Assembly (NCBI RefSeq): GCF_001243045.1
Contig: NZ_LN849007.1
Location: forward strand, 524,989 to 588,988
DNA: 64,000 bases
Source of the DNA: Clostridium niameyense
GTDB taxonomy: Bacteria; Bacillota; Clostridia; Clostridiales; Clostridiaceae
Reading direction: 5' to 3'
In this document: one piece after another, positions 1,055-15,141 of the stretch
How positions within the stretch are numbered: the first letter of the stretch is position 1
How the letters are laid out: each line of letters starts with the position of its first letter
Notes under the pieces: generated by a model
The model's input: only the letters and a program-made list of their open reading frames with translations
The model's database searches: none
Told to the model about the DNA's origin: nothing
Translations under genes and position numbers: made by a program

Positions 1055-1435
1055 ATGGAAAAAGCAATTATAGCTACTAAAAAAGCCCCAGCAGCTTTGG
1101 GACCATATTCACAAGCAGTAAAGGTAGGAAATTTATTATTTACATCAGGTCAAATACCTTTAATACCAGAAACAGGGGAATTGATTTGTGATGATATTAA
1201 AAGAGCTACAGAAAGATCAATGGAAAATTTAAGAGCAGTTTTAGAAGAAGCAGGAACTTCTTTTGATAAAGTAATAAAGTCTGTAATATTTGTTAAAGAT
1301 ATGAATGATTTTGCTGCTGTTAATGAAGTTTATGGAAAATATTTTACTTCAAATCCACCAGCTAGATCTTGCGTTCAAGTAGCAAAATTACCTAAAGATG
1401 CACCAATAGAAATTGAATTGGTAGCTATGGTATAA
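1055..1435 (+). CDS. ridA: RidA family enamine/imine deaminase
   Basis: A 126-residue protein of the YjgF/YER057c/UK114 family. These proteins hydrolyse reactive 2-aminoacrylate and related enamines released by PLP enzymes such as threonine dehydratase. Family features are visible: PAALGPYSQAV near the N-terminus, TSGQIPL, and the C-terminal RSCVQVAKLP segment containing the substrate-contacting Arg, followed by IEIELVAMV. ATG at 1055 is preferred over an in-frame TTG at 1049, because AAGGAG at 1041-1046 is spaced 8 bases from the ATG. Length is normal. A hairpin follows the gene, so it probably ends the transcript coming from the LCP gene. Confidence 0.95.
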   Translation: MEKAIIATKKAPAALGPYSQAVKVGNLLFTSGQIPLIPETGELICDDIKRATERSMENLRAVLEEAGTSFDKVIKSVIFVKDMNDFAAVNEVYGKYFTSNPPARSCVQVAKLPKDAPIEIELVAMV

Positions 1436-1454
1436 AATTTATTGAACATATTAT

Positions 1455-1484
1455 AAATGAGGAGCTTTTATAGCTCTTCATTTG
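1455..1484 (+). terminator. Hairpin terminator after ridA
   Basis: AAATGAGGAGCT pairs with AGCTCTTCATTT around a 5-base loop. It lies about 20 bases after the ridA stop and before the next ribosome site. The right arm ends in TTTG, so the U-tract is short. Confidence 0.65.
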
Positions 1485-1533
1485 TTTAAATGGGATAAAA
1501 CAACTTACATATATTCTAAAGGAGAAGCACACA

Positions 1534-2433
1534 ATGGATAATAAATTAACTTTTATAGCTTCCAATCAACAAGAATTAGATATAAAAGATTATTTAAAAA
1601 ATATAGAAAACTTATCTAGTAGATTAGTAAGAAAGGCTTTGAGAGAAGGAAGAATATTTTTAAATAAGAAAAGAGTAATAAAAAAAGCTAAAGTTGCTTT
1701 AAATGATATGATAGAGGTATATATGCCAGAGGAAGAACATCAAAATATAGAACCAGAAAAAATGAAGTTACATATTATATATGAGGATGATGATATTTTA
1801 GTTATAAATAAAGAACCAGGGATAGTAGTACACCCAACTAAAAGACATCCTAATGGAACCTTATCTAATGGGATATTATATTATTTTAAAGAAAACAATG
1901 AAAAATGTATAGTTAGATTAGTAAGTAGATTAGATATGGATACTTCAGGATTAATATTAATAGCCAAAAATCAATTTTCTCATATGGCATTAGCTAGGGA
2001 TATGGGAAAAGAACACTTTAAAAAGATGTATATAGCAGTAGTTCATGGAAATATGCATGAAAAACAAGGAATAATAAATTTACCTATAGGAAGATCAGAA
2101 GAAGATTCTATAAAAAGGGTTGTAACAGATAGAGGACAAAATAGTATAACCAAGTATAAAGTCATGGAAAGTCTAAAAAATGGAGACATAATACAATTAG
2201 AATTAGAAACTGGAAGGACTCATCAAATAAGGGTACATATGTCACATATAAATCATCCTTTGTATGGAGATTCGCTTTATGGAAAAGAGGAAAAAGATTA
2301 TATAAATAGGCAAGCACTACATGCTTATAAATTAGAATTTCCTCATCCTAGAACTGGTGAAATAATAAAGTTAAAAGCACCTATACCGGAAGACATTATT
2401 AATTTAATATCTAAAATAAAAGAGAACTGTTAA
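1534..2433 (+). CDS. RluA family 23S rRNA/tRNA pseudouridine synthase
   Basis: A 299-residue enzyme that isomerises uridine to pseudouridine in structured RNA. An S4 RNA-binding domain occupies roughly residues 15-75 (LSSRLVRKALREGRIF). The catalytic domain follows, with the family motif containing the nucleophilic Asp (VSRLDMDTSGL, about residues 130-140) and the later TGRTHQIRVHM motif. The family includes RluD, RluC and the Bacillus YlyB/YhcT/YjbO paralogues, and the target uridine cannot be assigned from sequence. The ATG at 1534 has GGAGAAG upstream. The gene ends in a strong bidirectional terminator shared with the convergent carboxypeptidase gene. Confidence 0.93.
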   Translation: MDNKLTFIASNQQELDIKDYLKNIENLSSRLVRKALREGRIFLNKKRVIKKAKVALNDMIEVYMPEEEHQNIEPEKMKLHIIYEDDDILVINKEPGIVVHPTKRHPNGTLSNGILYYFKENNEKCIVRLVSRLDMDTSGLILIAKNQFSHMALARDMGKEHFKKMYIAVVHGNMHEKQGIINLPIGRSEEDSIKRVVTDRGQNSITKYKVMESLKNGDIIQLELETGRTHQIRVHMSHINHPLYGDSLYGKEEKDYINRQALHAYKLEFPHPRTGEIIKLKAPIPEDIINLISKIKENC

Positions 2434-2454
2434 TTAAAATAACAGTTCTCTTTT
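2418..2454. terminator. Bidirectional terminator between RluA-type gene and dac gene
   Basis: A 15-bp perfect stem, AAAAGAGAACTGTTA with TAACAGTTCTCTTTT, has a 7-base loop. It ends in U-rich sequence on both strands and overlaps the stop codon of the upstream gene. Confidence 0.92.
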
Positions 2455-2459
2455 ATTTA

Positions 2460-3686
2460 TTAAACAGATTGTTGTTTTTTATTTTTAATAAATTTTATTA
2501 AAAATATTAAAACTACAATTAATAATCCTATTAATGGAACTATAAACTTAAGATTTAAATAACTTTTAGGTATTTCATTATTTAATATTCTTATTACTTG
2601 GTGATCAGCTCCGCTTTTTAATTTTAATACACCTAAATTTTGGTCATCACAATTAAGACAGGCATCTAAAACTATATCACCTTTTTTAAAATCTTTTGAA
2701 TCTAAATCCACATTAGTTAATTCAATATTAGGCTTCTTATGCTCATTTTTTTTACTTAAATAATAAAAATCTTTAGAAGCATATAAAGGTATATTCAAAT
2801 CCCTAGATTTGTAGGAAGTAACATAAGCATTTTTAGGATACAAAAGTGTTAAAGAATAATTATTAAATCCATAATCAAATAATTTTATAGAATCTTCAAA
2901 GAAGGTTTTTTTATTATCATGTACTAAAGCTACAATTAATCTTTGATTATTTTTAGTAACACTAGCCACATAAGAATGCTCTGATTGAGTAGTATAACCA
3001 GTTTTTCCTCCTTCACAACCTCCATAATAATAATTAGAACTTTTTTGTATTAATTTATTGGAATTCCACAAGGGCCTACTTTCTTTTGATTTATTAGTAG
3101 GAGCAATATTATAAGATGAAGTTGTAGCTATGGTTGTATATTCAGGATGTTTTACTAATTCTCTCATAATTATAGCTAAATCTTTAGAAGAGGTTTTATG
3201 ATTTTTAGAATATAATCCACTAGGATTTTCAAAATTAGTATTTGTACAACCAAGTTCACTAGCTCTTTTATTCATCATTTTAGCAAAGTTTTCTTGAGAA
3301 CCACCTATGTATTCAGCTAAAGCTTCAGCACAATCATTACCAGAGGCTAATAAAAGACCATAAAGTAAATCTCGTACTTTAATTTTTTCTCCTTCAAATA
3401 CGTAAATTTTACTTCCATCAGCTAAAGGAGGATTTTTGCCTATAGTTACTATATTATTTAAGTTTGTTTTTTCTAAAGTTAAAAGGGCAGTCATTATTTT
3501 AGTTGTTGATGCGGGGGGATAGGCTTTGTCAGCATTTTTAGAATATAAAAGTTTACCCGTAGTAGCATCCATTAAAACTGCACTATCTGCTGAAACTTTA
3601 GGTATAGTTTCTTTAGCTTTTATAGTCATAGAGAATAAAGATATAAATAAAAATAAAGATATTAAAAACGAAAAAGTTTTTTTCAT
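2460..3686 (-). CDS. dacF: D-alanyl-D-alanine carboxypeptidase (PBP5/DacF family)
   Basis: A 408-residue serine peptidase that trims the terminal D-Ala from peptidoglycan stem peptides at the outer membrane face. It has a signal peptide (residues 1-24, hydrophobic then SMTIKAKE). The three active-site motifs are intact: STTK at 60-63, SGN at 115-117 and KTG at 228-230. A C-terminal transmembrane helix (about residues 378-398) and basic tail replace the amphipathic anchor usual in PBP5. The region between is a PBP5_C-like beta domain. In Bacillus the related DacF is sporulation-specific, but no sigma-F site was identified here, so dacF rather than dacA is a guess. It is divergent from comEA. 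Confidence 0.9.
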   Translation of the reverse strand: MKKTFSFLISLFLFISLFSMTIKAKETIPKVSADSAVLMDATTGKLLYSKNADKAYPPASTTKIMTALLTLEKTNLNNIVTIGKNPPLADGSKIYVFEGEKIKVRDLLYGLLLASGNDCAEALAEYIGGSQENFAKMMNKRASELGCTNTNFENPSGLYSKNHKTSSKDLAIIMRELVKHPEYTTIATTSSYNIAPTNKSKESRPLWNSNKLIQKSSNYYYGGCEGGKTGYTTQSEHSYVASVTKNNQRLIVALVHDNKKTFFEDSIKLFDYGFNNYSLTLLYPKNAYVTSYKSRDLNIPLYASKDFYYLSKKNEHKKPNIELTNVDLDSKDFKKGDIVLDACLNCDDQNLGVLKLKSGADHQVIRILNNEIPKSYLNLKFIVPLIGLLIVVLIFLIKFIKNKKQQSV

Positions 3687-3822
3687 TATCTCCTAGACCT
3701 CCTATGTTATGTCATTGATATTCCTAATTATATCAAAAAAATAGGTAATATGCGAATTCAATAATGAAATCTGTCAATAATTAAAGTGTATATATAATTT
3801 AAATAATAGGGAGAAGATTTTA

Positions 3823-4410
3823 ATGAAAAGTAAAAAGAAGATAATAGGTTCTATAGCTATACTATGTATTTTAAGTATATTTGCTATAGTAGGTTACTTT
3901 ACTTCAAGACCCTCTAAAGTTCCAAAAGAAGAAGACATATTTGTAGAAAATACAAAGGATAAAGTGAAATCTAGTAAACAAATTTCAGTTTATATAAATG
4001 GAGAAGTTCATAAACCTGGGGTATATAAACTTGAAGAAAATGATAGGGTAGAAGATCTAATAAATAAGGCAGGTGGGTATACAAGTAATGCGGATACCTT
4101 TAAGGTAAATTTAGCTAAAAAGTTAAAAGACGAAGATTATATATATGTAACTGAAAAGAAAAATTCAAAAAACAGTGTTGAAGATAAAGAAAGTAATAGT
4201 TCATCAAACACAGATGAAGATAAAATAAATATAAATAATGCTAGTAAAGAAGAGTTAAAAACTATACCTGGAATTGGAGATGTAACAGCTCAGAAAATAT
4301 TAGATTATAGAGAGAAAAATGGAGGTTTTTCAAAAATAGAAGATTTAAAAAAAATAGATAGAATAGGAGATAAAACATTAGAGAAAATAAAGGATAAGGT
4401 GGATATATAA
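3823..4410 (+). CDS. comEA: ComEA-type competence DNA-binding protein
   Basis: A 195-residue membrane-anchored DNA receptor used in transformation. One N-terminal transmembrane segment (about residues 6-25) is followed by an SLBB domain (about 50-110; ISVYINGEVHKPGVYKLEE), a Ser/Asn/Glu-rich linker, and a C-terminal helix-hairpin-helix pair (ININNASKEELKTIPGIG, then GGFSKIEDLKKI DRIGDKTLEKI). The ATG at 3823 has GGGAGAAG upstream. In Bacillus comEA is followed by comEB/comEC. Here a selenocysteine locus and a P-type ATPase homologue lie between it and comEC, about 8 kb away. Domain order and length are normal. Confidence 0.93.
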   Translation: MKSKKKIIGSIAILCILSIFAIVGYFTSRPSKVPKEEDIFVENTKDKVKSSKQISVYINGEVHKPGVYKLEENDRVEDLINKAGGYTSNADTFKVNLAKKLKDEDYIYVTEKKNSKNSVEDKESNSSSNTDEDKININNASKEELKTIPGIGDVTAQKILDYREKNGGFSKIEDLKKIDRIGDKTLEKIKDKVDI

Positions 4411-4530
4411 CAAGATTCAGTTGAATATTTAAAGTTTCTTACAAAATAATATAATCTATGTTGAATAAAATTAAATTATGTTACAATAAAATTATTAATT
4501 AAGTTTTTATTATAAAGGGGAGTGCTTTAA

Positions 4531-5613
4531 ATGGCAGTTGATATAAACAATATTAAAGAGGGAGATTCATGCTCAATAAAAAAGAAAAAAGTTAGATTAA
4601 CGGAACTATCAAGAACCTCAGGATGAGCTGCAAAAATAGGACCGGGGGTGCTATCAAAAATACTTTCTAAACTTCCTAAAATGGAAAATGAAAATTTAAT
4701 AGTAGGGATAGAAACATCAGATGATGCAGCAGTTTATAAAATGGATGATCAAACAGCTATAATACAAACTTTAGATTTTTTTACTCCTATAGTAGATGAT
4801 CCTTATATGTTTGGTCAAATAGCAGCAGCAAATTCATTAAGTGATGTATATGCTATGGGTGGAAAACCAGTTGTAGCATTAAATATAGTATGCTTTCCTT
4901 CTTGTTTAGATATTGAAATATTAGGAGAAATATTAAAAGGAGGAGCGGATAAGGTATTAGAAGCTGGAGCAGTGGTTATAGGTGGGCATACAGTAGATGA
5001 TAATGAACCTAAGTATGGATTATCTGTTACAGGTATTGTACATCCAGATAAGGTTTTAAAAAATTATGGATCTAAAAAAGGTGATGTTCTTATAACCACA
5101 AAGCCTTTAGGTATAGGAATCATAAATACGGCAATTAAGGGAGAAATGGCATCAGAAGAAGCAAAAGATATGGCAGTAAAATCTATGAGCACTTTAAATA
5201 AATATGCAGGTGAAATAGTTACTAAATACCCTATAACAGCGTGTACAGATATAACAGGTTTTGGCTTTTTAGGACACGCTTATGAAATGGCATCAGCATC
5301 TGATGTATCTTTTAATCTATATTGGGATAAGATACCTTATATAAAAGAAGCCAAAGAATATGCTGAATTTGGGCTAGTGCCTGCAGGAGCATATTCTAAT
5401 AAGGATTATATAGAGGGAAATTTTCAATTTGAAAATGTTCCTACATATATGCAAGATATATTATTTGATCCTCAAACATCAGGGGGACTTTTGATTTCTT
5501 GCAAAAAAGAAGATGCAAAAAATATAATGGAAGAGCTAAATAAGTTAGAATTGCAATCCGCTATTGTAGGAGAAGTAATTCCTAAAGAGGATAAATACAT
5601 AATAGTTAAATAA
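4531..5613 (+). CDS. selD: Selenide, water dikinase (SelD), a selenoprotein with in-frame UGA
   Basis: SelD makes selenophosphate from selenide and ATP, the selenium donor for selenocysteine. A conventional ORF starts only about 4648, but homology runs back through an in-frame TGA at 4624-4626 to ATG 4531, which has AAGGGGAG at 4516-4523. The segment before and after the TGA reads LSRTSG-U-AAKIGPG, matching the SelD catalytic site where other species have Cys or Sec. This gives 360 residues with Sec at position 32, normal for the family. Downstream are the ATP-binding [11 protein letters not shown] motif, [11 protein letters not shown]-like motif ([14 protein letters not shown]) and the C-terminal DPQTSGGLL motif. 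It is the first gene of selD-selA-selB-selC. Confidence 0.95.
4636..4654 (+). promoter_or_regulatory. Bacterial SECIS-like hairpin in selD mRNA
   Basis: Nine bases after the UGA, ATAG pairs with CTAT, then after a G-G mismatch ACC pairs with GGT, closing a GGG loop (4644-4646). A short stem with a G-containing apical loop about 18 nt past the UGA fits the known SelB-binding requirements in bacteria. Pairing was done by eye, not by folding software. Confidence 0.65.
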
Positions 5614-5658
5614 ATTAATGGCTAAAAATAAAAATTAACATAAGAATGGAGAACGTAT

Positions 5659-7047
5659 ATGGAAAAAAGAGAGTTATTAAGGAATTTGCCTAAAATTGAT
5701 GAGCTTTTAAAAGAAGGTAAAGTTATTAATGATTTAAAAAGAGTTTCCAGAAACTTAGTTGTAGATAGTTTAAGGCAAAGTATAGAATATTACAGAAAAA
5801 GTATATTGAAAGGTAAAGTAAAATACTATGAAACAGAAGATATTTTAAATTATTATGATGATGTTTTATATGAAAATAAAGAGACAAAGTTTAAAAAGGT
5901 TATTAATGCTACAGGGGTTGTAATACATACTAACTTGGGGAGATCTCTTTTGGCTAAAGATGCTATAGAGAATATAATTAAGGTTTCAGAAAACTATAGC
6001 AATTTAGAGTATGATTTGAAGGAAGGAAAAAGAGGTTCAAGATATAGTCATGTAGAAGAACTTATTAAAAAAGTTACAGGAGCGGAAGCCGCTATGATAG
6101 TTAATAACAATGCTTCAGCAGTAATGCTTGCTTTAAATACCATTTGTGAAGGAAAGGAAGCTATAGTATCTAGAGGACAACTTGTAGAAATCGGAGGTTC
6201 TTTTAGGGTACCTGATGTAATGAAATTTAGTGGCGCCACATTAGTAGAAGTAGGAACAACTAATAGAACTCATTTATATGATTACGAAAATAATATAAAT
6301 GTAAATACTGGAGTGTTATTAAAGGTACATACTTCCAACTTTAAAATATTAGGTTTTACAGAAGAAGTAACAAGAGAGCAGTTAGTTGAATTGGGTAAAA
6401 AATATGACTTACCTGTAATGGAGGATATAGGTAGTGGAACTTTAATAGATTTCTCTAAGTATGGATTTACTTATGAACCTACAGTGCAAAGTAGTTTAGA
6501 AAAAGGAATAGATATAGTTACTTTTAGTGGGGATAAAATGCTTGGAGGACCTCAAGCAGGTATAATAGTAGGTAAAAAGAAATATATAGACAAAATGAAA
6601 AAGAATCAATTAACAAGAGCACTAAGAATAGATAAGATGACTTTAGCAGCTTTAGAAGGAACTCTTAAATATTATTTGGATGAAGAAGAAGCTATAAAAT
6701 ATATTCCTACGCTTTATATGATATTAAGTTCTAAAGATATACATAAAAAAAGAGCTCAACGTTTAAAAAGAAAGCTACAAAATAATGTAGAAGATTTTAA
6801 AATTAAAATAGAAGAGGATTATTCTATGGTGGGCGGAGGATCTATGCCAGCAGAAAAAATTCCAACTTATGTTTTAAAAATAGCTAGTGATAAAATTACT
6901 GCAGAACAAATTGAAAAGAAACTAAGATTAAGTAGAAATCCTATCGTAGTAAGGGTTAATAAGAATGAAGTAATTTTAGATGTAAGGACTTTATTTGATA
7001 AAGACTTTGATATAATAGTAAATGAATTTAAAAAATTACTAAAATAA
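5659..7047 (+). CDS. selA: L-seryl-tRNA(Sec) selenium transferase
   Basis: A 462-residue PLP enzyme that converts Ser-tRNA(Sec) to Sec-tRNA(Sec) using selenophosphate. The N-terminal domain (about 1-80; [12 protein letters not shown]) contacts the tRNA. The PLP domain has the family signature [15 protein letters not shown] near residue 82 and the Schiff-base Lys in [13 protein letters not shown] (about residue 290). Length is normal. It lies 45 bases after selD and is directly followed by selB, so the three are very likely one operon. The bacterial route with a homodecameric SelA, rather than the archaeal PSTK/SepSecS route, is therefore used. Confidence 0.97.
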
Positions 7048-7065
7048 GTGAAAATGGTGATGTAT

Positions 7066-8973
7066 ATGAAAAATGTGATAATAGGAACAGCAGGACATAT
7101 TGATCATGGTAAAACTACATTAATAAAAGCTTTAACAGGTAGAGAAACAGACACTTTAAGAGAAGAAAGAGATAGAGGAATATCTATAAACTTAGGATTT
7201 ACTTTTTTTGATTTACCTTCAGGTAAAAGAGCTGGTATTGTAGATGTACCTGGTCACGAAAAATTTATAAAAAATATGCTAGCAGGAGTTAGTGGCATTG
7301 ATATAGTACTTATGGTTATTGCAGCAGATGAGGGAGTAATGCCACAAACAAAGGAGCATTTAGAAATATTACAATTACTTAATGTAAAAAGAGGAATTAT
7401 AGTTCTAACAAAAATAGATATGGTAGAAAAAGAGTGGCTGGATATGGTTAAAGAAGACATAAAAGAAGAACTAAAAGGTACATTTTTAGCAGATGCTCCT
7501 ATGTATCCAGTATCATCAAAAACTAAAGAAGGATTAGAGGATTTAATAAAGACTATAGACAATTTAACGGAAAAAATAGATGTAAAAGATATATATGGTC
7601 ATTTTAGATTACCTGTAGATAGAGTTTTTTCTATAACTGGTTTTGGTACTGTTGTAACAGGAACTGTAATTAGTGGAAATATAAAAGAAGGACAAACAGT
7701 TCAGATATATCCATCAAAAATAACTACTAAAGTTAGAGGAATTGAAGTACATGATAAAAAAACTAAAGAAGCTGAAGCAGGACAAAGATGTGCACTAAAT
7801 CTATCTAACATAAAAAAATCAGATATTAATAGAGGGGATATAGTATCTATAGAAAATCTTATGGAGCCCTCTATGATGATAGACTGTAAACTTTATTATT
7901 TAAAAAGTGCTTCAAAACCATTGGAAAATAGACAAAGGGTTAGATTATATAATGGAACTAGTGAAATTATATGTAGAGTAGTAATATTAGATAAAGAAGT
8001 TGTTAACCCTGGTGAAGAAGCCTATGTACAATTAAGATTAGAAAAACCTTTAACTTGTCAAAGAAACGATAGATATGTTATAAGAAATTACTCTCCTATG
8101 GTAACTATAGGTGGGGGAACTATAATAGAACCTGTAGCAAAAAAAGCTAAAAGATTTAATGATAAATACGTAGAAGAGTTAAAATTAAAAGAAAGTGGAG
8201 ATACAGGTAATATATTAGAAAAAACTATAGAAAAGTTAAGTGGTAAATTCCCAAGTAAGGAAGAAATATTAAAAGCTTTAGGAAAAAATGAAGAAAATAT
8301 AAATGAACAGATAGAAGAACTTCTATCAAGTGATAAAATAATATCTCTTAAAAATGGAGATAAGTTTGTATATGCTCATAATATTTTTATAAATACTAAG
8401 TTAAAAGAAATGGAAGACATATTAGAGCAGTTCCATAAAAATAATCCTTTAAAGTGGGGTATTTCTAAAGAGGAAATGAGAATAAAAACTTTAGGCAAAG
8501 AAGTTAAACCGAAAACTTATGATAGTGTATTAAAGTGGTTGGAATCTAAAGAAAAAATAAAAATTCATGGTAAATATGTTTCAAAATATGATTTTGATAT
8601 AGTTTATACGAAAGAGCAAGAAAAGATAAAGGATAAGATTATAAGTGAATATAAAAAAGGAAAGTATACTCCGCCTAAATATGATGAGTTATTTTCCAAG
8701 GAGCAAAATAAAGAAGAATTTAAAAGGGTTTATGAAGCTTTATTAGAAGAAGGAATCTTATTTAAAGTAAATGAAGAATGTGTACTTTTAACTGAATTCT
8801 ATAATGAAGCAAAAGAGAGGGTAACAAATTTTATAAATGAGAATGGAAGCATAACTGTAGCTCAATTTAGAGATATGATGAATACTAGTAGAAAATATTC
8901 TTTAGCTATATTAGAACATTTTGATGGAATAAAATTGACTAAAAGAGATGGAGATAAAAGAACTTTATTTTAA
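7066..8973 (+). CDS. selB: Selenocysteine-specific elongation factor SelB
   Basis: A translational GTPase that brings Sec-tRNA(Sec) to UGA codons with a downstream SECIS. G motifs are intact: G1 [11 protein letters not shown]3 DVPGHE, G4 TKID. EF-Tu-like domains 2 and 3 follow ([24 protein letters not shown]), then C-terminal winged-helix repeats (about 380-635) that bind the SECIS hairpin. I prefer ATG 7066, which is preceded at 5 bases by GGTGA (7056-7060). In-frame starts at 7048 and 7060 are also possible but add residues before the conserved NVIIGTAGH. With this start the protein has 635 residues, normal for the family. Its own upstream neighbour selD supplies at least one UGA target. 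Confidence 0.96.
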
Positions 8974-9022
8974 TATAAAATAAAACTATAATTTTAGGTA
9001 TGTCAAATAAGTTTATTTAATA

Positions 9023-9051
9023 TTGACTTTATGAAAAATTATATGTATAAT
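9023..9051 (+). promoter_or_regulatory. Promoter of selC
   Basis: TTGACT (9023-9028) and TATAAT (9046-9051) are separated by 17 bases, near consensus for the housekeeping sigma factor. The predicted start is about 40 bases before the tRNA. It implies that tRNA-Sec can be made independently of selDAB. Confidence 0.75.
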
Positions 9052-9100
9052 ATAAATCGTATTAAAAATAATGTAATATCTTGTTGATATTAAATGAAAT

Positions 9101-9197
9101 GGGAGTAGATAGGTGCTGGTGTGCCTACCGGTCTTCAAAACCGAGTTGTCGTGCTAAGACCATGATGGGTGGGTTCGATTCCCACATATTCCCGCCA
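9101..9197 (+). tRNA. selC: tRNA-Sec (anticodon UCA)
   Basis: A 97-nt tRNA directly after selB, ending in encoded CCA. Visible parts are a long acceptor stem (GGGAGTA with TATTCCC), an extended D stem TAGG/CCTA lengthened by two G-U pairs, an anticodon loop CTTCAAA with UCA, a long variable arm, and a T arm GTGGG TTCGATT CCCAC. The oversized D and variable arms and the UCA anticodon are diagnostic for selenocysteine tRNA. The eighth acceptor position looks like a G-A mismatch, which I could not resolve by eye. Confidence 0.93.
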
Positions 9198-9211
9198 AAA
9201 AAGTTATATAA

Positions 9212-9250
9212 GGTTTTAAACAGAAAAATCTCTGTTTAAAACCTTTTTTA
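9212..9250 (+). terminator. Terminator of selC
   Basis: GGTTTTAAACAGA pairs with TCTGTTTAAAACC over a short loop and is followed by TTTTTT. It begins 15 bases after the tRNA CCA. Confidence 0.92.
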
Positions 9251-9366
9251 ATTAAATTAATATGTTTGTTATAAATTAAAGACTTTATATATGTATACGA
9301 ATATAATGAAGTATATACAAAAATATAAAAAGAGATTTTCATTTTTTATTTTGGGGGTAGAATATT

Positions 9367-11976
9367 TTGAATAATTACTATAATCGTACATGGATAGATG
9401 TAGTTAAATCCCTACATAGTAATGCTTATTGTGGTTTAACAGAAGATCAAGTTTTAATGCACAGAAAAAAATATGGAGATAACAATATAAATATACCAAA
9501 GAGAAGAAGTATTTTATATTTTATATTTAATGAATTAAAACAGTTTTGGGTTTTATCTATTATATTAAGCTCAATTTTATTTTTTATTTTAAAAGATTTT
9601 GTTTATTTATCCATTGGTGTATTTATTTTAATTATAGATATAGTAATAATGGTATACCTACAAAATAAGGAACAAAAAAATATAAAAACTTTAGAAAATT
9701 TGAATATAACCTCATCAAGGGTTTTAAGGGGAAGTTTAAGTAAAAATATAAATTCAACAGAGCTAGTAGTAGGGGATATTGTAAGAATAAGGCCTGGAGA
9801 TATTGTACCAGCAGATATAAGAATAATAGAAAGTGAAAGAATTAGAGTTAATGAAGGAGTAGTTACTGGAGAAGACTATATAGTAGATAAGTATGCTACT
9901 AAAATAGAGGATAAAGAAATAACTACATCAGAAATGAAGAATATACTTTTTAAATCTTCAAAGGTAGTATCTGGTGAAGGTATAGGAATAGTTATAGCTA
10001 CAGGAGATAATACTGAAATTTCTAATATAATAAGTAAATTTTCAGAAGAAGAAGAAGAAAAAGTTTCTTTGAAAATGAGAATAGAGAGAATAGCTAATGT
10101 ATTTTCGTTAGCAATGTTTTGTATATTATCAATAATTTTTATTGTTAATTATCTTGAAAATAAAAGTATAAATGATATTCTATCTATAATAGCTGTATTA
10201 ATGATTTCCTATATACCCTTAACAAACATTATAATAATATTATTGTCTAAGAATATTGTGCTAAAAAAGCTAAGACAAGAAGGTCAAATATTTAGAAATG
10301 TATCGTCTATGGAAAAGTTTTCTAAAACTAATATAATCTTTTTTAATAAATTAGGATCTGTATCAGAAAACTCTATGATGGTAAATAAAATATACACAAA
10401 TGGTAATTTTGTTCCTTTGAATGAAGAAACTTTAAAAATAGAGGACGAGTTCAGAGAAGATTTAAATGTAGAAAGAATTTTAGAAATAGGTACTTTATGT
10501 AATGATACGGACTTTAGAATAGGTGAAGGAATTACAAATCCTAAGAATGATTTAATAGAGATTGGTCTAATACAGTTAGCTATAAAAAATAATATAAATA
10601 AAAATACTTTAGAAGATGAGTATAATAGAATATTAAAAATACCTTATGATAGAGACAAAAGAATAATGACGTGTATTAATAAAGTAGAGAATAATTATAG
10701 AGCTAACATAAAGGGTGATTTAGATAGTTTATTAAATAAATGTACTCGTATAATGAAAAATGGTATAGAAGTGGAAATAACAGAAGAAGATATACAACAA
10801 ATAAAAATGGCAGATATGGATATGTCTAAAAATAGTTTATTTTCTATAGCGTTTGGATATAGAAGTTTTAATTACGAGCCAAGTCCAAAAGAAAATATAG
10901 AAAGTAACGTAGTATTCGTAGGAATAATAGGTTTTCAAAATCCATTAAGAGAAGATTTAGAGCAGACATTTATGTTATCTAGGTATCTTTGTGTGTCACC
11001 TATAATGATAACAGAGGATAATAAATTTACTGCTTATCATATAGGTAAAAAGATGGGATTTATAAGAGATATAAATCAAGTTACATCTGGTGTAGAAATT
11101 GATAATATGAAAGAAGAAGAGTTTTCTGATATGGTAGAAAAAATAAAAGTTTTTTCTAGAATAAATTATAAAAATAAAACTAAAATAGCTGAAGAATATA
11201 AGGAAAAGGGATATGTTACAGTAATGGAAGCTTCAAATTCTACAGATATTTCGGTTTTAAAGGTAGCAGATGTAGGCGTTACAGATGATGATAATAATTT
11301 ATTAAAGAAATTTTCAGATATAGTATTAAAAAATAAAAGCTTAAAACAGTTATTATTATGTCTTTCAGATTGCAGGAGAATAATGGAAGTATTTAAAAAC
11401 ATAATTTTATATGTTATGATAGCCATGTTATCTACATTTTTATTTTCAACTATTATGTGTTCATATAGTAATATTTATAATTTTAGGCATGAAATATTGT
11501 GGATAAATTCTATTACTATACTTATTTCTTCTTTAGCTATGATAATTCAGTATAAAGATGAAGAGTATGATATGACAGATTATTATATAAATAAAAATAT
11601 ATTTATGGAGAATAAGACACAAATAATGATTACAAGTATTTTAATAAGTGCTTTTTCATTTTTAAATTTTAAGATTGTTTCAAGTTATTCTATAAATATT
11701 AACACTGCCATAGTATTTTCCTTTTTAATACTTAATTTTTTAATAGATACATTAATTTTAGGGTTTGCAAGTGGAAATATATTTAAAAACAAAGCATCTA
11801 ATATTTTAATGATAATAAATATGATATTACCAGTAATTTTAAACATAATATTATATTATGATTTAACTATAAAGATATTTAATCTTATGTACTTAAAGTT
11901 TTTAGGAATTACTGCTGTCATTTGGATTTTAATACTTTTATTCTATAAAAAAGAAAAGAACGGAGCATTGTTATAA
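9367..11976 (+). CDS. Catalytically degenerate P-type ATPase homologue (pseudo-ATPase)
   Basis: An 869-residue membrane protein with the full architecture of a P2-type cation ATPase: an N-terminal cation-ATPase domain (1-50), paired transmembrane helices (about 52-98), A domain (110-225) with TGED at 167-170, helices at 245-300, P/N domains (305-670) and a C-terminal membrane bundle (675-865). The catalytic motifs have drifted. The phosphorylation motif DKTGTLT is NKLGSVS (Asn327 in place of Asp), the helix-4 PEGL site reads YIPLT, KGA is KGD, the TGD motif is TED (549-551), and TGDGVND is replaced by EASNSTD (621-627). The frame is unbroken over 2.6 kb, so selection for a non-pumping role is likely. 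The start is TTG 9367 with GGGGG at 9353-9357. Substrate and role are unknown. Confidence 0.85.
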   Translation: MNNYYNRTWIDVVKSLHSNAYCGLTEDQVLMHRKKYGDNNINIPKRRSILYFIFNELKQFWVLSIILSSILFFILKDFVYLSIGVFILIIDIVIMVYLQNKEQKNIKTLENLNITSSRVLRGSLSKNINSTELVVGDIVRIRPGDIVPADIRIIESERIRVNEGVVTGEDYIVDKYATKIEDKEITTSEMKNILFKSSKVVSGEGIGIVIATGDNTEISNIISKFSEEEEEKVSLKMRIERIANVFSLAMFCILSIIFIVNYLENKSINDILSIIAVLMISYIPLTNIIIILLSKNIVLKKLRQEGQIFRNVSSMEKFSKTNIIFFNKLGSVSENSMMVNKIYTNGNFVPLNEETLKIEDEFREDLNVERILEIGTLCNDTDFRIGEGITNPKNDLIEIGLIQLAIKNNINKNTLEDEYNRILKIPYDRDKRIMTCINKVENNYRANIKGDLDSLLNKCTRIMKNGIEVEITEEDIQQIKMADMDMSKNSLFSIAFGYRSFNYEPSPKENIESNVVFVGIIGFQNPLREDLEQTFMLSRYLCVSPIMITEDNKFTAYHIGKKMGFIRDINQVTSGVEIDNMKEEEFSDMVEKIKVFSRINYKNKTKIAEEYKEKGYVTVMEASNSTDISVLKVADVGVTDDDNNLLKKFSDIVLKNKSLKQLLLCLSDCRRIMEVFKNIILYVMIAMLSTFLFSTIMCSYSNIYNFRHEILWINSITILISSLAMIIQYKDEEYDMTDYYINKNIFMENKTQIMITSILISAFSFLNFKIVSSYSININTAIVFSFLILNFLIDTLILGFASGNIFKNKASNILMIINMILPVILNIILYYDLTIKIFNLMYLKFLGITAVIWILILLFYKKEKNGALL

Positions 11977-12058
11977 ATAATAAAATTAAACCATTTTTAT
12001 AACTGATTAAAGTGTATATATACTGGTTAGAATAATGTTATGGAGGTGGGCTAAAACT

Positions 12059-12328
12059 ATGGATAATATTTTTGAAACAGTGGTTAAAGGAAGTAATATA
12101 GTATTTTTAAATGTACCTTATGAGGAATATTTTGCAAATTACCATAAATTGGATGGGAAATCAGCTGAATATATAATAGAAAATTATTTTAAAAATAAGG
12201 GAAAAAATTGTAGTGCAAAAATTTTAGATATTGAATGTGATGATGAAATTAATAAGATAAAGATAGCCACAGAGGTTAAGCAAAAAAATATAAGTGATAA
12301 TAAAAAACACTATAATTCATTCAATTAG
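12059..12328 (+). CDS. Hypothetical protein, 89 aa
   Basis: I do not recognise this protein. It is small, probably cytosolic and charged, with no signal peptide or transmembrane segment. The middle contains VPYEEYFANYHKLDG and a Lys-rich C-terminal tail. ATG 12059 is chosen because GGAGGTG lies at 12042-12048. An upstream in-frame ATG at 12035 would start before that ribosome site. It sits between the pseudo-ATPase and comEC, with 9 bases to comEC, so it is probably co-transcribed with comEC. No function is assigned. Confidence 0.7.
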   Translation: MDNIFETVVKGSNIVFLNVPYEEYFANYHKLDGKSAEYIIENYFKNKGKNCSAKILDIECDDEINKIKIATEVKQKNISDNKKHYNSFN

Positions 12329-12337
12329 GGGAATAAC

Positions 12338-14092
12338 ATGGAAAGACCATTAGTTTATTTTGCTGTTTCAATTTTTATATCTTGCATTTCCACCTTGATA
12401 TTTTTAAATAAAGCATTTTTAGGTGCAGTATTAGCTGCATCTTTTTTAATATTAATTTTTTTTACTCTAAACTATAAAGAGTTTATTGTAGTATTACTAT
12501 TTTTTATCTTAGGTTGTTTTAGTTTTATAAATTATTTTAATGTGGATATAAATAAAGAAATTACTGTTAGGATTTTAAGAAAAGATAAGTTTTATTGTAT
12601 AGCTGATTATAAGGGAAGAAATTTATCAGTTTTAGGAAATTTAAATAAAGTGGAAGAGGGAGACAAAGTAAGAATTAAAGGTGATTTTAAAAAGAAAGAT
12701 ATATATAGATTAGGTTCTATAGGAAGCTTTAAAGTTAAGAAACATTGCAGAGAAAAAAGAGATTTTATATACAAAATATATAATTTAAAAAAAATAGCTT
12801 ATATTAAATTTAAACAATATTTAGGAGAAGAAAAAGCTGCTACTGTAATGTCCTTATGTTTTGGAGAAACTAAATATATGTCTAATAGTGAAAAAGATAC
12901 ATTAAAAAAGCTAGGGGTAGTACATGTAATAAGTGTGTCTGGTTTTCATATGGCTTTAATTTATAATGTTATAGAGAAGATAATAAAGTTTCCATTTTCT
13001 ATACCAGTTGCCCTTTTATATGTAGTATTTACTGGAATGAAAGCATCATCTATAAGAGCGTTTATTATGATATTAATATTAAAATCTTCTAAAAAGTTTT
13101 TTAGAAAATATGATAGTTTATCAGCCCTTAGCTTAGCTTGTATTATAATTTTACTAAAAAAACCTTATTACATATTAGATATAGGATTTATGTTATCATT
13201 TTTATGTACTTTAGGAATTATATTAAACAACAAAAAAATGTCTAGATATTTATATAAATTACCTAGGAAATTAAATGAATCTTTAAGTTTAACATTAAGT
13301 GCTCAGATATATTCTTTCCCATATATATGTTTTACCTTGAAAAATTTTGGACTAGGTTTTATAATAGGAAATTTAATATTAGTACCTTTATATGCACCAG
13401 TAGTTTTATTAGGAAATCTAGCCTTATTTTTAATTAAAGTTCCTGTTATATTTCCAATTATAAATAAAATAATATATACTATTTTAACAATTATAAGAGG
13501 AGGTCAATTAATATTAGATAATTTAACTCCTTCAATTATGGGTGTATCCTATATACATGGTATACTTTTTAGTATAATATATATTAGTTATTTACTATAT
13601 AATCATGGCTATAAAAAAATAAAATATTTACCTATATATTTTTTCTTTTTTTTAATGTTTTTAAATTATAATATTTATCCTAAACTTTATTATATAAGAG
13701 GAAATGGATATGAAGTATCGATTATAAAATACAAATTTGAAACTACTATGATTTGTAGTTATAATATAAATTCAGCTAAAGATATATTAAAAATAAAAGA
13801 AGAAGTAAAACCTAAAAAAATAATAACTAATCCTTCCATAAGTAAAAAACTAAATTTAGATAATAATTTTCAATTTTATATAAATCCTTATTTAAAAGAA
13901 GAATGCAGAAAATATAATTTAATTTTAAGCTATAAAAGAAAGATATATGTTTTTTCTCAGGATAAGCATAGTTTACCGAATATTAAAAATAAGTACACTA
14001 TGATAAATTTAAATAACAAGAATGGATTAAGTAAAGAAAAAAATGCTTCTTTTATGATATTTTTAGGAAAGGTATATAGTTTTAATTATTAG
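12338..14092 (+). CDS. comEC: ComEC/Rec2-type DNA-uptake channel lacking the metallo-beta-lactamase domain
   Basis: A 584-residue polytopic membrane protein. ComEC forms the channel that passes single-stranded DNA across the membrane in transformation. The N-terminal part has two or three helices and an OB-like DUF4131 region (about 40-150). The Competence domain (about 160-440) includes VVHVISVSGFHMALIYN and ASSIRAFIMI, both family signatures. Canonical ComEC is about 700-800 residues and ends in a metallo-beta-lactamase domain with HxHxDH. Here the last ~130 residues are short, Lys/Asn-rich and contain no such motif. The nuclease-like domain is therefore absent. The gene is followed after a few bases by holA, the usual neighbour. 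Confidence 0.88.
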   Translation: MERPLVYFAVSIFISCISTLIFLNKAFLGAVLAASFLILIFFTLNYKEFIVVLLFFILGCFSFINYFNVDINKEITVRILRKDKFYCIADYKGRNLSVLGNLNKVEEGDKVRIKGDFKKKDIYRLGSIGSFKVKKHCREKRDFIYKIYNLKKIAYIKFKQYLGEEKAATVMSLCFGETKYMSNSEKDTLKKLGVVHVISVSGFHMALIYNVIEKIIKFPFSIPVALLYVVFTGMKASSIRAFIMILILKSSKKFFRKYDSLSALSLACIIILLKKPYYILDIGFMLSFLCTLGIILNNKKMSRYLYKLPRKLNESLSLTLSAQIYSFPYICFTLKNFGLGFIIGNLILVPLYAPVVLLGNLALFLIKVPVIFPIINKIIYTILTIIRGGQLILDNLTPSIMGVSYIHGILFSIIYISYLLYNHGYKKIKYLPIYFFFFLMFLNYNIYPKLYYIRGNGYEVSIIKYKFETTMICSYNINSAKDILKIKEEVKPKKIITNPSISKKLNLDNNFQFYINPYLKEECRKYNLILSYKRKIYVFSQDKHSLPNIKNKYTMINLNNKNGLSKEKNASFMIFLGKVYSFNY

Positions 14093-14109
14093 TATAGAGG
14101 GTGAGAGGC

Positions 14110-15141
14110 TTGATAGATTTATTAGAATTAAAAACCTATATAAATGAGAATCCAAATGAAAATTGTTACATATTTACGGGATATGATGAACAAATTATAA
14201 AAGATAGTATAAAAAAAATAACAAATAATATTGTAAATGAAAATTTTAAAGAATTAAATTATATTACTTTTGATGGTAATTCTTTAGAAGAATTTGATGA
14301 TATTTTTAATGCTTGTGAAACAGTACCTTTTATGAGCGAAAAAAAGGTAATAGTTATATATAGAGCGTCCTTTTTAGAAGATGATAAAAATGATTATAAA
14401 TCTAAAAATTTATATAATAAAATGGAAAAGTATATAGAAAAAATGCCAGATTATTGTACCTTAATTATGTACTCCGTATTAAATAACAAAAGAGATAAAA
14501 TAAGTAGTAGAATAAAAAAATTAGATAAAAAATCTTGTGTAGTACAGGTAGATAAACTAAAAGGAAATAATTTAGAGAAAATAATAGAAAAGCTTTTTAT
14601 AAATAAGGGCAAAAAAATAGACAAAGTATGTTTAAAGGTTTTTGCACAGAATATGAAGGAAGAAAATTTAAGTATAATAGAAAATGAAGTACAGAAAATT
14701 TGTGATTATACTTTAGGAAAAGATATAGAAAAAAAAGATATAAATGAAATGTATCAAAATATTAGTGATGAAGATATATTTGATTTAATGAACTTTATTT
14801 CTCAAAGAAAGACTAGGGAAGCTATAGAAGTATTCAATGAATTATTGTTTAAAGGACATAAAGTCAATCATATACTAGCTATGATAGAAAAACAATTTAG
14901 AAATTTGTATTTAGTTAAAGCAGGTATAGATAATAATAAGACAAAGGATGAATTATCAAGAGAATTAAAAATTCATCCTTATGGATGTAGTATACTAATA
15001 AGTCAAAGCAAAAAATTTACGTTAAAACAAATAGAAAAAGCCATAGGGATGAGTTTAGAAGTGGACAAAAAAATAAAAACTACTTCTGTAAATCCAAATA
15101 CAGAAGTAGAACTTTTAATTATTAACTCTATATCTTATTAA
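14110..15141 (+). CDS. holA: DNA polymerase III delta subunit
   Basis: A 343-residue clamp-loader subunit that opens the beta clamp. The N-terminal AAA-like fold begins with NCYIFTGYDEQIIKDSI (a degenerate P-loop, as usual for delta). The middle has MKEENLSIIENEVQKI and the C-terminal domain has MIEKQFRNLYLVK. TTG 14110 is preferred over GTG 14101 because GAGGGTGAG (14098-14106) is properly spaced for the TTG and overlaps the GTG. Location between comEC and rpsT is the same as in Bacillus (yqeN). Confidence 0.93.
   Translation: MIDLLELKTYINENPNENCYIFTGYDEQIIKDSIKKITNNIVNENFKELNYITFDGNSLEEFDDIFNACETVPFMSEKKVIVIYRASFLEDDKNDYKSKNLYNKMEKYIEKMPDYCTLIMYSVLNNKRDKISSRIKKLDKKSCVVQVDKLKGNNLEKIIEKLFINKGKKIDKVCLKVFAQNMKEENLSIIENEVQKICDYTLGKDIEKKDINEMYQNISDEDIFDLMNFISQRKTREAIEVFNELLFKGHKVNHILAMIEKQFRNLYLVKAGIDNNKTKDELSRELKIHPYGCSILISQSKKFTLKQIEKAIGMSLEVDKKIKTTSVNPNTEVELLIINSISY

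Follow-up and report, generated by a model that had tools for sequence, protein, structure and literature searches.

A conserved, apparently inactive P-type ATPase homologue encoded beside comEC in Clostridiaceae

The gene considered here lies in a 64,000-nucleotide stretch of Clostridium niameyense DNA (contig NZ_LN849007.1, positions 524,989 to 588,988 of the forward strand), referred to throughout as the window, and encodes a full-length homologue of P2-type ATPases. P-type ATPases are defined by a phosphorylated aspartate residue and its helpers in the phosphorylation (P) domain; a clade present in 143 of 206 Clostridiaceae genomes has dropped these defining residues and yet has been kept. 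We call its members pseudo-ATPases. That they form a conserved pseudoenzyme family, whose catalytic residues have been lost throughout one clade under purifying selection, is well supported by the comparisons below, and judging from the residues replaced the protein is almost certainly catalytically inactive.

The window gene is a single open frame, and the chance of 869 successive open codons is about 10^-39 at the base composition of the window. Its description in the initial annotation as an intact P2-type frame agrees with the Pfam matches (E1-E2_ATPase, Cation_ATPase and Cation_ATPase_N, all above cut-off) and with the predicted structure, a full P2-type fold in which the actuator (A), nucleotide-binding (N), P and membrane domains are all present. 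When the motifs were read by alignment to the Listeria Ca2+-ATPase LMCA1 and 19 active-type clostridial P-type ATPases, the replacements first noted (NKLGSVS for DKTGTLT, YIPLT in the helix-4 PEGL region, TED for TGD and EASNSTD for TGDGVND) proved to have been read correctly. The accompanying claim that every key catalytic motif is lost goes too far: these four are altered, but the actuator-domain TGE and most of the nucleotide pocket are retained. With SERCA residue numbers mapped through the alignment, we find proline and leucine (P284, L285) at the helix-4 ion site and I718 at the position of the helix-6 aspartate; the pocket residues E398, Y427, R432, K449 and G450 are kept, and the equivalent of R560 is lost, being F492.

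Relatives were sought in 225 genomes of the order, comprising 206 Clostridiaceae (NCBI taxonomy; the family of C. rectalis) and 19 others. A first search returned nine orthologues, 29–40 % identical to the window protein and all motif-degenerate, so that the related clostridia do hold the orthologues with shared losses that the initial annotation had proposed looking for. In a profile search 133 of the 206 Clostridiaceae genomes matched at E<=1e-175, and a discriminating sub-profile (window residues 420–560), used for the order-wide search, matched 143 of the 225 genomes, all of them Clostridiaceae; the same sub-profile gave no match in the other 19, of which 17 are listed individually as unmatched. 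The gene is one open frame of 739–919 codons in 141 of the 143 matching genomes, with three loci cut by contig ends (L115, L119 and L193; L and G numbers denote our loci and genomes respectively). Broken copies adjoin comEC at L166 and L175, in two genomes; the L166 break is either recent or an assembly error, given that intact relatives share up to 78 % identity with its largest fragment. Fifty-one members are 27–43 % identical to the window protein, and no relative of the window copy closer than about 43 % identity was found. A class-wide sample of 391 genomes gave 43 matches, of which the 16 strong ones (194–234 bits) all come from the Clostridiaceae set; of the 27 weaker ones (114–132 bits) four were checked, and over the length of their frames these are intact pumps, with DKTGT and TGD in all four and GDGVND in three. 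The weak match at L215 is a 623-codon frame without GDGVND.

The losses are shared across the family. We aligned 134 members (the window included and nine duplicate loci dropped) with 19 active-type pumps taken from the same genomes or loci, and read eight divergent members apart (L179, L193 and L218–L223), making 142 in all. Neither DKTGT nor GDGxND is intact in any of the 134 or the eight, whereas all 19 controls have both; indeed the controls have the pump residue at the phosphorylated aspartate, the DKT threonine, the TGD glycine, the DPPR aspartate, the GDGxND asparagine, the R560 equivalent and the helix-6 aspartate. The glycine of TGD, kept by every control, is absent from all 134 aligned members and present in one of the eight (L220); its place is taken by glutamate in 99 and aspartate in 29, and is thus acidic in 128 of 134. 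The aspartate of DPPR is never kept (asparagine in 126), nor is the helix-6 aspartate, and only a handful of members keep the helix-4 PE (five), the threonine of DKT (three), the asparagine of GDGxND (three) or the R560 equivalent (two). Replacement of the phosphorylated aspartate by asparagine, singled out in the initial annotation, holds for the window protein (residue 327) but is atypical: this position has Asp in 85 members, Glu in 22, Lys in 16, Asn in seven and Pro in four. The actuator TGE is exact in 92 of 134, with Glu or Asp at its last position in 122, although the following serine is kept in only eight. As read from the alignment, then, the universal loss is that of the DKTGT context, with the TGD glycine gone in all but one member. 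No transitional form with DKTGT or GDGxND was found among the eight divergent members. L220 (genome G094), which retains TGD and has lost the other two motifs, groups with L140 inside the clade, and its TGD could be a reversion or mark an early branch.

A tree built from 52 members together with 22 controls places all the members in one clade (SH support 1.0) on a stem of 1.02 substitutions per site, for which one ancestral loss is the simplest reading. Ratios of non-synonymous to synonymous substitution rates (dN/dS; pairwise NG86) were obtained for 28 disjoint pairs of members 70–98.5 % identical, and all 28 lie between 0.08 and 0.245 (median 0.135). For the 20 pairs in which comEC could also be measured the medians are 0.160 for the pseudo-ATPase and 0.183 for comEC, the pseudo-ATPase being the higher in four of 20, so that the gene is constrained like its neighbour. 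These values, with motif losses fixed family-wide, bear out the earlier suggestion of selection for a non-pumping function; simple decay had been expected to leave relatives with DKTGT intact and dN/dS near 1, and what we find is no such relative among 142 members and a low ratio.

Where the constraint lies was gauged as weighted information per column in members and controls, with domain borders that we set from the predicted structure. The N domain is conserved as in working pumps (2.38 bits in members vs 2.47 in controls) and the actuator nearly so (2.47 vs 2.79); the phosphorylation domain (2.23–2.31 vs 3.26–3.41) and the ion path are not, the membrane values being 1.57 vs 2.88 for helices 1–2, 1.35 vs 3.00 for helices 3–4 and 1.42 vs 2.66 for helices 5–10. 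Residues that have newly become near-invariant include R445, E468, R499, F501, Y503, P505, E509, N510 and N525. The full set of positions that hold adenine in active pumps (E398, an aromatic residue or Met at 427, basic residues at 432 and 449, and G450) is retained by 94 of 134 members, against 19 of 19 controls. The domain-wise constraint and the retention of the pocket together point to a cytoplasmic head whose surfaces have been preserved, and to a catalytic centre and an ion path that have been released.

The constant neighbour of the pseudo-ATPase gene is comEC, not a pump. The members could be placed at 140 loci, 138 of them with at least 900 bp downstream, and 137 of these 138 are followed directly by comEC in the same orientation, at a distance of no more than 60 bp in 85. 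The sole exception is L067, where holA is next and the comEC match of that genome lies on another contig. A terminator scan of the window found no terminator-like site between position 11976 and comEC, and a transcript shared by the two genes is likely. Upstream the neighbours vary: at the 100 loci flanked by 4 kb on each side, the gene found within 600 bp is spoVAE in 40, DUF503 in four, selB in four and sigF in three. A comEA gene was present in the 6.5 kb upstream at 32 of 104 loci. In the window the gene stands, as originally reported, after a selenocysteine locus and before comEC; the row at 4648–9197, in which we recognize selD, selA and selB followed by the tRNA-Sec gene, is presumably complete. 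The features of this region are collected in Table 1.

Table 1. Features of the window at and around the pseudo-ATPase gene
Feature	Coordinates	Strand	Remarks
comEA-like gene	3823..4410	+	5 kb upstream; 53% identical to an L001 gene coinciding with a comEA-family match
tRNA-Sec gene	9101..9197	+	End of selenocysteine locus
Terminator-like hairpin	9210..9245	+	15 pairs; between tRNA-Sec and pseudo-ATPase genes
GGGGG, ribosome-binding-like	9353-9357	+	About ten bases before the TTG start of the pseudo-ATPase gene
P2-type pseudo-ATPase gene	9367..11976	+	869 codons, TTG start; frame, Pfam and PDB match
Actuator-domain TGE	9865..9873	+	T167 G168 E169, retained; next Ser replaced by Asp
Helix-4 ion-site motif YIPLT	10210..10224	+	Residues 282-286; replaces PEGL region
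Phosphorylation motif NKLGSVS	10345..10365	+	Residues 327-333; DKTGTLT in pumps
N domain region	10402..10908	+	Residues 346-514; borders set by us
Family signature YRSFNYEPSPKENIESN	10858..10908	+	Residues 498-514; N-to-P domain hinge
TED	11011..11019	+	Residues 549-551; TGD in pumps
EASNSTD	11227..11247	+	Residues 621-627; TGDGVND in pumps; last Asp retained
97-aa open reading frame	12035..12328	+	No known Pfam or NCBIfam family
comEC	12338..14092	+	584 aa; Competence is the sole Pfam domain; HxHxDH nuclease motif absent
holA (DNA polymerase III delta)	14101..15141	+	After comEC; named through L008 orthologue

The small gene between the pseudo-ATPase gene and comEC had been described as encoding 89 aa and put forward as a possible conserved neighbour. 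Its product is 97 aa from the first ATG, 89 aa fitting the second, and it was detected in only 22 of the 100 well-flanked loci. Because loci without the pseudo-ATPase, both in Clostridiaceae and in other families of the order whose ComEC is full-length, also have this gene ahead of comEC, we reject it as a partner of the pseudo-ATPase and regard it as an unnamed comEC-associated gene; besides the window, it stands directly before comEC at L180–L184, L225–L229, L231–L233 and L236. A 92-aa protein encoded between the pseudo-ATPase gene and comEC at L007:8549-8827 has a weak, below cut-off match to phage holin Hol44 (Phage_holin_5_2), and similar proteins occur at L218, L219, L104, L129, L136 and other loci; this small membrane protein looks like a sporadic insertion. 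At L187, where the pseudo-ATPase is absent, the place immediately before comEC is taken by a 1116-aa open reading frame (1404-4751, minus strand) whose product contains a P-loop (GFFGSGKSHF); this product seems to resemble the BREX protein BrxC. Active-type PMR1-like pump genes stand near the pseudo-ATPase gene, at distances between a few kb and about 28 kb, at L093:352-2904 and L118:11574-14126 and in genomes G003, G004 and G008, with spoIIA genes between the two at L093 and L118. A close active-type pump subfamily occurs in 194 of the 206 Clostridiaceae genomes, many of them without a pseudo-ATPase gene, and its co-occurrence therefore neither supports nor excludes a role for the pseudo-ATPase as a pump regulator.

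ComEC itself has been reduced in this family. HxHxDH is present in none of the 107 complete comEC frames among the 134 member loci, and 15 further Clostridiaceae comEC loci likewise lack it; outside the family 15 of 17 genomes of the order have a Competence match, and all 14 full frames (693–728 codons; the split comEC of G594 was dropped from the count) have HxHxDH. Still shorter Clostridiaceae comEC frames of 446–450 codons occur at L073, L074, L078–L080, L082 and L086. One published paper (PMC6299819) reports the loss of both DUF4131 and Lactamase_B from Clostridiaceae ComEC. In the genomes searched no pseudo-ATPase was found outside Clostridiaceae, the family in which ComEC lacks the nuclease motif, so the pseudo-ATPase is known only from the family with the stripped ComEC, a coincidence that is suggestive without amounting to a dependence. 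By what means the non-transforming DNA strand is broken down or displaced when ComEC has no nuclease domain is posed as an open question in PMC8579336, and the near-fixed place of the pseudo-ATPase gene beside a nuclease-less ComEC bears on that question.

The reading that we favour, though tentatively and at somewhat less than even confidence, is that of a family-wide pseudo-P-type ATPase kept as a non-pumping, nucleotide-responsive partner of the nuclease-less ComEC. Phosphorylation and ion binding would have been lost, in the simplest case a single time, from a P2A pump ancestor (PMR1/SERCA-like), whose descendant would have been retained in the membrane with the cytoplasmic actuator and nucleotide domains as its working parts. 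Co-transcribed with the nuclease-less Clostridiaceae ComEC and positioned beside this channel, it might report nucleotide state or change shape through its head domain and so gate or stabilize ComEC, perhaps still binding adenine nucleotide without a phosphoenzyme cycle. Physical or functional partnership with ComEC, for which gene order is the evidence, is a possibility that we would put a little short of an even one, and we regard adenine-nucleotide binding with the same reserve. A more specific version, which we consider improbable, is that a dead Ca2+-pump scaffold was recruited as an accessory subunit when ComEC lost its nuclease and OB domains, its non-phosphorylatable head gating or energizing the DNA channel by nucleotide binding alone.

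Several observations weigh against a role with ComEC or against strong constraint. Since comEC-holA-rpsT-gpr-spoIIP is conserved as a block, adjacency alone is no proof of partnership. Among the 206 family genomes, 63 have no pseudo-ATPase match, 200 have comEC and 58 have comEC without the pseudo-ATPase, so ComEC does not need it; many comEC loci show no remnant of the gene, and several of the 38 comEC loci taken from genomes without a first match lack it cleanly between spoVAE and comEC. Nor does comEA appear to track it: of the 193 genomes with a comEA-family match 134 carry the pseudo-ATPase gene, as do nine of the 13 without one. Evolutionary rates, compared in the 96 of 134 members in which all four genes were long enough to use, covary most with those of comEC (partial r 0.453, standard error 0.049), to a degree that cannot be distinguished from the covariation with holA (0.410, standard error 0.057). 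The R560-equivalent and P-domain losses would make tight ATP binding less likely. The two broken copies of the gene are those of genomes G033 and G072. Among the matches listed, the best for the active-type pump share at least 66 % identity with their query, against 27–43 % identity of pseudo-ATPase members to the window protein, so that the pseudo-ATPase seems to have a much higher rate of evolution than the active-type pump and to be far less constrained.

The two broken copies, together with the 63 genomes without a match, are what a decaying pseudogene open by chance would have in its favour; we reject it as very improbable indeed, given the low dN/dS in 28 of 28 pairs, the position-specific losses shared by the members, the single open frame in 141 of 143 genomes and the minute chance of the window frame itself. 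That the protein still moves something, whether through a passive channel, by scrambling lipids or as a pump phosphorylated at an unusual site, would fit the full P2-type fold, the aspartate at the phosphorylation position in 85 members and the exact TGE in 92, but we think this distinctly unlikely, because conservation is lowest in the membrane helices (1.35–1.57 bits against 2.66–3.00 in controls), the helix-6 aspartate is lost in 134 of 134 and an acidic residue has replaced the TGD glycine in 128. Rather less unlikely is an independent membrane-anchored sensor of a nucleotide or second messenger, with comEC a mere neighbour in an old gene block: the N domain is as constrained as in active pumps, eight of the new near-invariant residues (R445, E468, R499, F501, Y503, P505, E509 and N510) can be counted for it, and rate covariation with comEC is not specific, although comEC has stayed adjacent in 137 of 138 loci despite repeated rearrangement on the opposite flank.

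We regard as equally improbable a Ca2+-related sporulation protein, that is, a dead pump that senses or regulates the movement of Ca2+ or Ca-dipicolinate through the SpoVA channel or an active Ca2+ pump in the sporulating cell. The best family matches are to PMR1- and SERCA-type Ca2+ pumps, spoVAE is directly upstream in 40 of the 100 well-flanked loci, and the pseudo-ATPase gene is carried by 142 of the 194 spoVAD-positive genomes but by one of the 12 negative ones. In the other 60 loci, and in the window, spoVAE is not adjacent; eight of the 12 spoVAD-negative genomes are closely numbered (G183–G196), and shared ancestry may explain the association. From Bacillus gene order, spoIIA-spoVA and comEC-holA-rpsT-gpr-spoIIP are old blocks, and they may simply have joined here. 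Upstream of 131 members a sigma-K-like motif occurs four times against 0.85 expected (at most two in 20 shuffles), whereas sigma-E (nine vs 7.0), sigma-F (none vs 0.75) and sigma-G motifs (one vs 2.2) are at chance. Among the positive controls, spoVAC and gpr were not picked up by these promoter patterns, and at spoIIP the sigma-E pattern alone succeeded (16 of 59 vs 4.8); the scan is therefore weak evidence either way.

Among known systems the pseudo-ATPase most resembles the P2A Ca2+-ATPases (PMR1/SPCA, SERCA and LMCA1, PDB 6zhf) in its length, its A, N and P domains and the layout of its membrane helices, and LMCA1 of Listeria is the best PDB sequence match to the window protein (E 1.8e-81, residues 22–797). 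Unlike these pumps it is without the phosphorylation, TGD, GDGxND, helix-4 PEGL and helix-6 Asp motifs, and its best NCBIfam matches, TIGR01522 and TIGR01116, miss their cut-offs by far (277.7 vs 798.3 and 237 vs 703.4 bits), although several active-type controls also fall slightly below that of TIGR01522 (e.g. 764.7 and 754.9). It does pass the subfamily cut-off of the HAD-IC family P-type ATPases (TIGR01494; 100.6 vs 62.3 bits), a label that implies an enzyme for a protein without the residues that make one, and public annotation thus probably names many non-pumps 'cation-transporting ATPase'. The Competence-only ComEC of Clostridiaceae has likewise lost a catalytic domain, but ComEC is a channel, to which the pseudo-ATPase is tied by gene order only, and none of the com proteins known to us is a homologue of the pseudo-ATPase. 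Among the papers that our literature search brought up, as far as their accessible text goes, we recognized none describing a conserved bacterial P-type pseudo-ATPase family. In its conserved fold, lost catalysis and purifying selection the family is like pseudoenzymes in general, of which pseudokinases and iRhoms are examples.
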